A stretch of DNA of 64,000 nt from Serratia marcescens (lineage in GTDB: Bacteria; Pseudomonadota; Gammaproteobacteria; Enterobacterales; Enterobacteriaceae). Below the pieces are notes generated by a model, which was given only the letters and a program-made list of their open reading frames with translations, had not been told where the DNA came from and searched no databases. Of this stretch, positions 28,873 through 29,942 are shown piece by piece; position 1 is the first letter of the stretch; every line of letters begins with the position of its first letter. Position numbers and translations under genes: made by a program. The stretch spans positions 248,001 to 312,000 of the forward strand of contig NZ_JARVZZ010000001.1 of assembly GCF_029846115.1 (NCBI RefSeq), read 5' to 3'.

Positions 28873-28948
28873 GGCCCCTTAGCTCAGTGGTTAGAGCAGG
28901 CGACTCATAATCGCTTGGTCGTTGGTTCAAACCCAACAGGGGCCACCA
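28873..28948 (+). tRNA. ileX: tRNA-Ile2 (anticodon CAT, lysidine-modified in the cell)
   Basis: The 76-base sequence folds as a complete cloverleaf. The acceptor arm GGCCCCT pairs with AGGGGCC, and the encoded 3' CCA is at 28946-28948. The D-loop has AGCTCAGTGGTTAGAGC, the anticodon CAT is at 28906-28908, and the T-arm is GTTGGTTCAAACCCAAC. Sequence and neighbourhood beside mug match E. coli ileX, whose CAU anticodon is changed to lysidine by TilS so that it reads AUA, rather than a methionine tRNA. The T-stem differs from E. coli by compensating changes. Confidence 0.93.
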
Positions 28949-28970
28949 AATTTTAGCTTTAAAATCATAT

Positions 28971-29003
28971 AAAAAAGCCACTTTTCTCGAAGTGGCTTTT
29001 TTA
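28971..29003. terminator. Bidirectional terminator after the tRNA gene
   Basis: AAAAAGCCACTT and AAGTGGCTTTTT enclose a 6-base loop. It can end ileX on the plus strand and the small-gene cluster on the minus strand. Confidence 0.9.
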
Positions 29004-29054
29004 TTTCGTGCTCACAGTGGCGGCAAAATGGCGGCAGTATGCCGGCACTATCAG

Positions 29055-29276
29055 TTATCTTTCCCCTCTTAACCAGCCTATAGCCAGACTCACCAGAAAG
29101 CCGGCAAAGAAAATCACGATAGCCGCAGCGATAGATTTCCACCACTCGTCAAACCAGAACAAGGCAACAAAGGCCGCAATGGAGAAAAGGCCAATGATAA
29201 CGGACTCGGCCAGATCGGCCGTTTGGTGACCAACAAACTTAGTGAACTTCACAAGAAAGGATTTTAGCCAGTTCAT
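29055..29276 (-). CDS. Small two-helix membrane protein, copy A of a tandem pair
   Basis: The 73-residue protein is unrecognised. Residues 1-20 are basic and possibly amphipathic (NWLKSFLVKFTKFVGH). Two hydrophobic helices (about 26-41 and 47-67) are joined by the short acidic loop FWFDEWWKS, and the C-terminus is charged (LRGER). It is clearly paralogous to the 69-residue protein at 29361-29570: G-L/V-FS-I/V-AAF, LFWFDE-x-W and the R-x-ER end are shared, with one 4-residue gap near residue 18. The ribosome site is weak. The small size and topology recall holins or immunity proteins, but nothing in the sequence proves either. It is last in a three-gene cluster next to a tRNA. Confidence 0.6.
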   Translation of the reverse strand: MNWLKSFLVKFTKFVGHQTADLAESVIIGLFSIAAFVALFWFDEWWKSIAAAIVIFFAGFLVSLAIGWLRGER

Positions 29277-29360
29277 TGATTTTCTTACTTAACGATAGGA
29301 AGTCATCATCACTTGATCATTAGTTAAAATCCAACCGCTGGCTTTTGATTGATCAATCCG

Positions 29361-29570
29361 CTATCGCTCGCTTCTCACAAGGCTACACAAAGCAATAGTG
29401 ACAAACACCAGCAACAGGAATATTGCCGCGCTCAGAATTCGTTGCCACCCTTCGTCGAACCAGAACAGTGAGCCAAACGCAGCGACAGAAAATACCCCGC
29501 CCAAAATCACTTCCACAAGGTGCGACAATCCTTTACCGAGCTTACTGCCCCAAGACTTTAGATAGCCCAT
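29361..29570 (-). CDS. Small two-helix membrane protein, copy B of a tandem pair
   Basis: The 69-residue protein is unrecognised apart from its similarity to copy A. It begins GYLKSWGSKLGKGLSH, has hydrophobic helices at about 19-37 and 44-64 around FWFDEGWQR, and ends LVRSER. Its ATG lies inside the end of the upstream 75-codon gene (29-base overlap in another frame), with AAGG about 9 bases upstream, so translation is probably coupled. 84 bp separate its stop from copy A. Preserved motifs in two diverged copies argue that both are, or recently were, real genes. Confidence 0.6.
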   Translation of the reverse strand: MGYLKSWGSKLGKGLSHLVEVILGGVFSVAAFGSLFWFDEGWQRILSAAIFLLLVFVTIALCSLVRSER

Positions 29571-29769
29571 GATTCATACCTTCACAGAACATTTTCGATT
29601 TGCTGGTATAGGCAACAAAGGGTTCAAGATACTCCTCCGCCAGAAAGTAGATCATGTCCAGATTTCGTGGGGTGAGCTTATGGTACGTTGAGGGAGACAG
29701 TTCCCGCAAACGACGCGAAGAAACGGCGGCCTGTTCAATAATTCCTTGAGCTACGGCTTTCGCATCCAT
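29542..29769 (-). CDS. Hypothetical 75-residue soluble protein, first gene of the small cluster
   Basis: The protein is unrecognised. It has no hydrophobic helix and looks mostly helical, with basic and acidic segments (SSRRLRELSPSTYHKL, MIYFLAEEYLEPFV) and one Cys. AAGGGA precedes the ATG at 29769 by 5 bases, a good ribosome site. It overlaps copy B by 29 bases. Base composition is more AT-rich than the surrounding backbone. A soluble partner encoded before a small membrane protein suggests a functional pair, but this is only inference. Confidence 0.55.
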   Translation of the reverse strand: MDAKAVAQGIIEQAAVSSRRLRELSPSTYHKLTPRNLDMIYFLAEEYLEPFVAYTSKSKMFCEGMNHGLSKVLGQ

Positions 29770-29942
29770 AGCAATCCCTTATCAGTGAGCTGGCCGTACC
29801 CTATAGCAACTTCGCTTAAAATATTAACACATCTCTTTCATCCTCTTAGAGAGCCCCGCCATAATGGCTTTTTTGTTTCCCGCCGCCGTGCCACACTTCT
29901 CTTTCGGCATTCCTGATTTATTCTGACTCATAAGGCCCCTGC

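Follow-up and report, generated by a model that had tools for sequence, protein, structure and literature searches.

A putative decayed Ssp6-like effector-immunity locus and its orphan immunity gene beside a CAU tRNA gene in Serratia marcescens

Three small ORFs next to a CAU tRNA gene of Serratia marcescens probably represent (we put the probability at about 0.74) a decayed Ssp6-like effector-immunity locus that retains an orphan immunity gene. This assignment is based on gene architecture, on distribution and on the linkage of relatives to Hcp, with Ssp6 entering the comparison by its published description only. The cluster lies in a stretch of 64,000 nucleotides (positions 248,001 to 312,000 of contig NZ_JARVZZ010000001.1), which we call the window. 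T designates the effector-like gene and M the gene of its small membrane-protein partner, numbered by the length of its product (M69, M73); T' is the effector-like gene of a second lineage, and G and L numbers denote genomes and loci of the comparison.

All three ORFs are on the minus strand and have 75, 69 and 73 codons, and their coordinates confirm the initial annotation, including the overlap of 29 bases between the first two (29542-29570). The 75-aa ORF occupies 29542-29769, M69 29361-29570 and M73 29055-29276. The end of the M73 ORF is 106 nt from the tRNA (28873-28948, plus strand; named tRNA-Met by ARAGORN), and the GC content over the cluster is 46-50% in 500-base windows versus about 56-68% around it, in agreement with the AT-rich DNA next to a tRNA 3' end described at the outset. 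Between the tRNA and M73 we found a perfect 15-bp hairpin between A and T runs (28969-29004, no strand assigned), which resembles a terminator for the tRNA side as well as for the minus-strand genes. It is followed by three copies of a TGGCGGCA-like sequence with 11-nt spacing (29018-29047, plus strand), for which 0.03 chance matches are expected in the window and which we take to be possible integrase arm sites. TGGCGGCA repeats with 11-nt spacing also adjoin T-M modules at other sites (L060 around 869, L080 around 7316); such repeats beside modules at different sites could be the integrase arm sites of a past element.

The first ORF had been described as a separate soluble gene of 75 codons, a view that does not stand. 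Relatives at the same site possess a T gene for 211 aa whose start and end are those of the 75-aa ORF, and, measured against G001, 408 bp (136 codons) of T are missing from the window, in frame. The junction (29735-29748, minus strand) is a single copy of a 14-nt sequence which is doubled (13/14 alike) in the intact T of G001, as expected of recombination between short repeats. Judged from these alignments, the 75-aa ORF is the in-frame deletion remnant of a helical protein of about 211 aa, consisting of its start and its C-terminal part. The structural model of T is all-helical at moderate confidence (pLDDT 73.2). As a candidate Ssp6-like effector gene, T in the window's strain is not intact, with 136 codons deleted, and the window holds a T remnant and no working member of the family. 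Relatives of the 75-aa protein occur in 12 of the 30 genus genomes. A protein search with the remnant yielded two relatives. One has 108 aa and lacks the normal start; the other, P0011 with 62 aa, has the junction in common with the window's remnant but an altered tail, the normal one being lost. Because P0011 combines the same junction with a changed tail, the deletion also exists beyond this strain, and elsewhere the frame has decayed further. A broken effector can in this way be mistaken for a new small gene: annotation would list the 75-aa ORF as a hypothetical protein.

We regard it as extremely unlikely that the 75-aa protein, M69 and M73 form a functional three-gene unit in the window's strain. 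Such a unit would be in line with a deletion that is in frame and preserves the M69 overlap, with the 57 remaining codons of T, which differ from those of G029 by three synonymous and three nonsynonymous changes, and with a junction common to a 62-aa database protein; it is opposed by the missing normal tail of that same protein, by the 211-aa T of the same-site relatives and by the derivation of M73 from another lineage.

That derivation also bears on the two membrane proteins, which had been interpreted as a tandem duplication in situ. The motifs named for the 69- and 73-residue products are indeed all present in both, and an alignment of the two proteins over 73 columns gives 38% identity (E = 1e-13 in a single comparison). 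Nevertheless M69 and M73 are partners of different T lineages rather than local duplicates. The best relatives of M73 are the M proteins of T'-M pairs (90% identity in L060, 89% in G003 and 79% in L062), while identity to the M69 group is 38-42%, so that M73 resembles the partner of a different effector more closely than it does its neighbour. The T' of L060 is 93% identical to the T' of L009 (G003) and 44% to the T of G001. The start of M73 still spells the tail of T' in another frame (last 12 codons and stop, 29239-29277, minus strand), and in G002 M73 is immediately preceded by a longer remnant of T' (26 residues, 96%). Both a remnant of the displaced effector (the T' tail in G002 and in the window) and the extant ancestral state (T'-M alone in G003) could therefore be identified. 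On these grounds M73 is evidently an orphan, the immunity-like partner of a T' whose gene is gone, and M69 is the own, cognate partner of T. Relatives of M73 were found in eight of 295 family genomes and relatives of M69 in eight of the 30 genus genomes. Between the window and G001 dS is 0.44 for M73 and 0.02 for M69, and the locus is thus a mosaic of histories.

M is modelled as a two-helix hairpin at low confidence (pLDDT 67.6), and both M69 and M73 are predicted two-helix membrane proteins. Out of the three roles the initial annotation offered, the evidence favours toxin/immunity. A holin-like function is not supported by the Pfam holin families, whose matches reached 12 and 12.6 bits, far below the cut-off of 28.4, and nothing pointed towards envelope stress. 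Nothing similar was found in E. coli either, as had been stated (no match in 20,395 records by blastn at E <= 1e-3).

In relatives, the CAU tRNA is an integration site of prophages, and 45-47 nt of its 3' end recur past the insertions. The mug-tRNA anchor is present, at least in part, in all 30 genus genomes, and the tRNA flank was compared in 24 other genomes, leaving out G010 (anchor at a contig edge) and G025-G028 (partial anchors). T or M is located at the tRNA site in five of these 24, and the stretch read there in the other 19 contains neither. G013 and G014 have an empty site with 123 bp from the tRNA to a GNAT gene; the stretch missing from them corresponds to 28959-29864 of the window (no strand assigned), near whose ends a 15-nt terminator-like repeat is found (28993-29007 and 29865-29879). 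G021 carries a 32-kb insertion and then the empty flank. At the tRNA site of G003 there is only T'-M, and in G001 the frames of T, M69 and M73 are all open. G002 contains a T split into two pieces, M69, the T' remnant and an M73 interrupted by an internal stop, and G029 a 34-kb insertion followed by an M73 cut to 28 residues, M69 and an intact T; the orphan M73 is therefore not always retained. In G011, T-M69 lies within a 31.5-kb insertion. Empty, older-pair, stacked, remnant and decayed states thus occur together at a single tRNA site in a single genus, and because all of them exist side by side, the order of events is testable.

Downstream of T there is a small overlapping ORF, be it on a chromosome, a plasmid or a viral contig. 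We closely examined 16 loci, picked mostly because the M profile had found no partner there: all 14 readable ones have an overlapping downstream ORF of 58-98 aa (counted from the first start) that contains two hydrophobic segments, some of these ORFs having no sequence relationship to M69. L093 and L079 are two of these loci in which T itself is in pieces. Among 40 further loci with 39 T ORFs no shorter than 195 aa, a count that leaves out seven shorter T fragments, 36 of the 39 have an overlapping small membrane ORF, for 32 of which two or more segments were called and for four of which one; the partner is missing in L198 (disrupted), L207 and L216. The distances of T and M also covary over 22 intact pairs chosen as non-redundant (Mantel r 0.76, with none of 9999 permutations as high). 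Taken together, T of about 211 aa and M, small and with two predicted hydrophobic helices, evidently form a conserved overlapping gene pair.

Several arrangements of such pairs were seen along the way. Two different T-M units adjoin each other in L144 (7711-10793), one of them then followed by Hcp, and in L079 (4030-8833), where one T is in pieces, and an 85-aa ORF in L043 (1420-1677) consists of a T-like start seemingly fused to M, as if the rest of T had been deleted. A second recurrent chromosomal site is indicated by T-M beside a 561-aa gene in L048 (3992-6737), L071 (9468-11153) and L080 (7519-9204); this gene belongs to phrog_4489 in L071 and L080 and is annotated as a putative transporter beside ybjM and grxA in L048.

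How often M outlives T was studied with 48 distinct M proteins of the M69/M73 clade (within the same class, less than 93% alike). In 25 of them M directly follows an intact T, in 21 it follows a broken or partial T or another M, and two have no T nearby. The 21 comprise 13 that come first after a broken or partial T, and eight second M's, five behind an intact T-M pair and three behind a broken T. Also among the 21 are three truncated M's, one frameshift-extended M and one group at a contig edge. Persistence of M after the loss of T is thus common, and these numbers fit a loss of the effector before its immunity gene; because T served as the bait for most of the loci, M-only loci are underrepresented, which precludes a fair comparison of the two loss rates.

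The connection to type VI secretion comes from relatives of T. Hcp-like ORFs are present in 10 of 40 loci within the about 11-12 kb read, in five of them (L217, L219, L221, L223, L224) directly downstream and on the same strand, and all nine Hcp ORFs submitted scored above the cut-off of Pfam T6SS_HCP. TssC was found in none of the 40 loci. The profile of the window's T clade matches a 235-aa T of L144 (Enterobacter cloacae M-7; 6e-12), which is followed by M and then Hcp, an arrangement likewise found in L093. Proximity to hcp thus holds for relatives of T, but not at the window's own locus, and Hcp is not linked directly to the window's own T clade, with the sole exception of L144, where one pair of that clade lies about 0.85 kb from the T-M-Hcp unit. 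In L224 (4353-7408) T-M-Hcp occurs twice in tandem, an effector array with alternating Hcp. Within 392 family genomes T was detected in 136 (66 of 154 genera) and TssC in 231. TssC is found in 130 of the 136 T-positive genomes versus 101 of the 256 others (Fisher p 2e-31, uncontrolled for phylogeny and genome size, many T-negative genomes being small), and six genomes (G162, G237, G312, G388, G390 and G407) contain T without TssC. The window's genome encodes TssC and three Hcp proteins, which indicates a T6SS in the host. It also harbours two intact T-M pairs elsewhere: one of another clade with 215 and 74 aa (G000 C1, about 4848411-4849242; L003 1495-2326 / L133), just downstream of ssrA (tmRNA), as are similar pairs in L014/L126, and a second one with 215 and 69 aa and a 4-nt overlap (G000 C1, about 2412342-2413195; L132 6343-7196), whose arrangement closely resembles the published one of ssp6/sip6.

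The T-M architecture, the T6SS-positive hosts and the Hcp neighbours fit the Ssp6/Sip6 family. In the original report, Ssp6 is described as a T6SS effector which forms cation-selective pores (Mariano 2019, PMC6889166), a small helical-looking protein without Pfam domain or solved relative, and Sip6 as the product of a 204-bp ORF that overlaps ssp6 by 4 nt, has two predicted helices and was found in the outer-membrane fraction. According to the same paper, relatives of Ssp6 are spread over the Enterobacteriaceae and more widely over Enterobacterales, at variable, horizontally acquired locations, each with a small downstream ORF and sometimes beside an orphan hcp. All these features recall T and M. 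The window's locus differs by its broken T, by having two M genes, one of them an orphan, by its tRNA prophage site (the word "prophage" is absent from the main text of PMC6889166) and by an overlap of 29 nt in its clade in place of 4 nt. Less similar is Ssp4/Sip4 (Reglinski 2025, PMC12669606): it is likewise a membrane-depolarising T6SS effector with a membrane immunity protein encoded downstream, but Sip4 has four predicted helices, and Ssp4 consists of 13 helices plus one sheet and occurs beyond Enterobacterales.

For the order of events, the T6SS effectors of V. cholerae provide a model, where sequential displacement leads to arrays of immunity genes: a new pair is placed in front, the older effector is lost, and its immunity gene remains together with an effector remnant (Kirchberger 2017, PMC5361080). 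By analogy, a T-M pair would have arrived here beside an older T'-M pair, T' would then have been lost with its M left behind, and later the middle of T would have been lost by recombination between short repeats. As far as described there, the V. cholerae arrays are situated within T6SS clusters, whereas here the tRNA is away from T6SS genes, prophages occur at the same site and the newer effector has been broken as well. Displacement with leftover immunity genes is thus known from T6SS clusters, and what is unusual here is the tRNA/prophage setting. If the Ssp6 family is a valid guide, intact T would be delivered by the T6SS into neighbouring bacteria and open ion-selective pores, and M in the membrane would block the matching T. 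The locus in the window's strain should no longer attack; at most it would protect against neighbours with T or T', provided that M69 and M73 continue to be produced in working form.

An ordinary chromosomal toxin-antitoxin system, in which T and M act within the cell and stabilise prophages or plasmids and M69 and M73 are antitoxins, seems quite unlikely to us. It would explain an overlapping two-gene unit on prophages and on plasmids (24 records, including seven Cronobacter plasmids), as well as the loss of the first gene with retention of the second. It would leave aside the Hcp linkage of the relatives and the nesting of T in T6SS-positive genomes, and for the Ssp6 family toxicity is reported on periplasmic direction and T6SS delivery (PMC6889166). 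On one of the Cronobacter plasmids, pCsaCS931a (L047 4001-4850), T-M lies among phage-like genes (N-6-adenine methyltransferase, DUF3927).

Carriage of T-M by prophages is clear in one case and likely in two. In L137 (S. marcescens 106R) T-M69 is placed between a replication nickase (phrog_91, 9e-280) and the large subunit of the terminase (phrog_5751, 1e-177), with small ORFs between these genes. Going by its gene types, we take this prophage to be P2-like, and in P2-like phages the region between nickase and terminase is a known hotspot for cargo. In this relative the T-M pair is cargo of a P2-like prophage at the same tRNA. The Pantoea locus L050 shows the order tRNA, T, M and integrase (Pfam Phage_integrase), and L084 is near another such replication nickase. 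T or part of it was found on 42 viral-contig loci, often at the edges of predicted prophages, and the modules of L052-L057, L060 and L082 lie outside the tRNA repeat, towards the host.

One could speculate from these cases that P2-like temperate phages carry Ssp6-like pairs between bacteria into the CAU tRNA site and arm their lysogens via the host T6SS, with immunity genes remaining once the phage or the effector is lost, accumulating beside the tRNA, recording the toxins that earlier prophages brought in, and still able to protect. This proposal is tentative and we consider it possible at best; if the host T6SS did indeed fire prophage-borne pairs, bacterial weapons would be spread by temperate phages. 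The presence of T-M pairs in prophages would be compatible with a phage-related role as well, namely defence or superinfection exclusion, in which T harms the membrane of the infected cell on entry of a second phage, M restrains T and the tie to the T6SS is by descent only. The T-M69 pair between nickase and terminase, the gene order in Pantoea and the viral-contig loci speak for such a role, but many of these matches are at prophage edges or outside the tRNA repeat, three T queries gave no match in 50,697 isolated-phage records, and PADLOC (2023 library) returned for nine T relatives and one M just two weak matches (E 0.011 and 0.019). Given also that the relatives are linked to Hcp and track TssC, a defence function appears unlikely, and we keep to the decayed effector-immunity locus.

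Selection was finally considered for all three genes. The pooled pN/pS is 0.124 for M69 (9 sequences), 0.130 for M73 (7) and 0.126 for T (7), from pairs that are not independent. Homologues with conserved frames exist outside this strain and their pattern is not neutral, in keeping with the initial annotation, and its proposal that the motifs are kept by selection holds genus-wide (0.12-0.13). The window's own M69, by contrast, differs from G029 and L057 by five nonsynonymous and no synonymous changes; with approximate site numbers and post hoc, such a pattern has a probability of about 0.002 at the genus-wide ratio and of 0.26 under neutrality. The M69 of the window may therefore be drifting under relaxed constraint now that T is gone.
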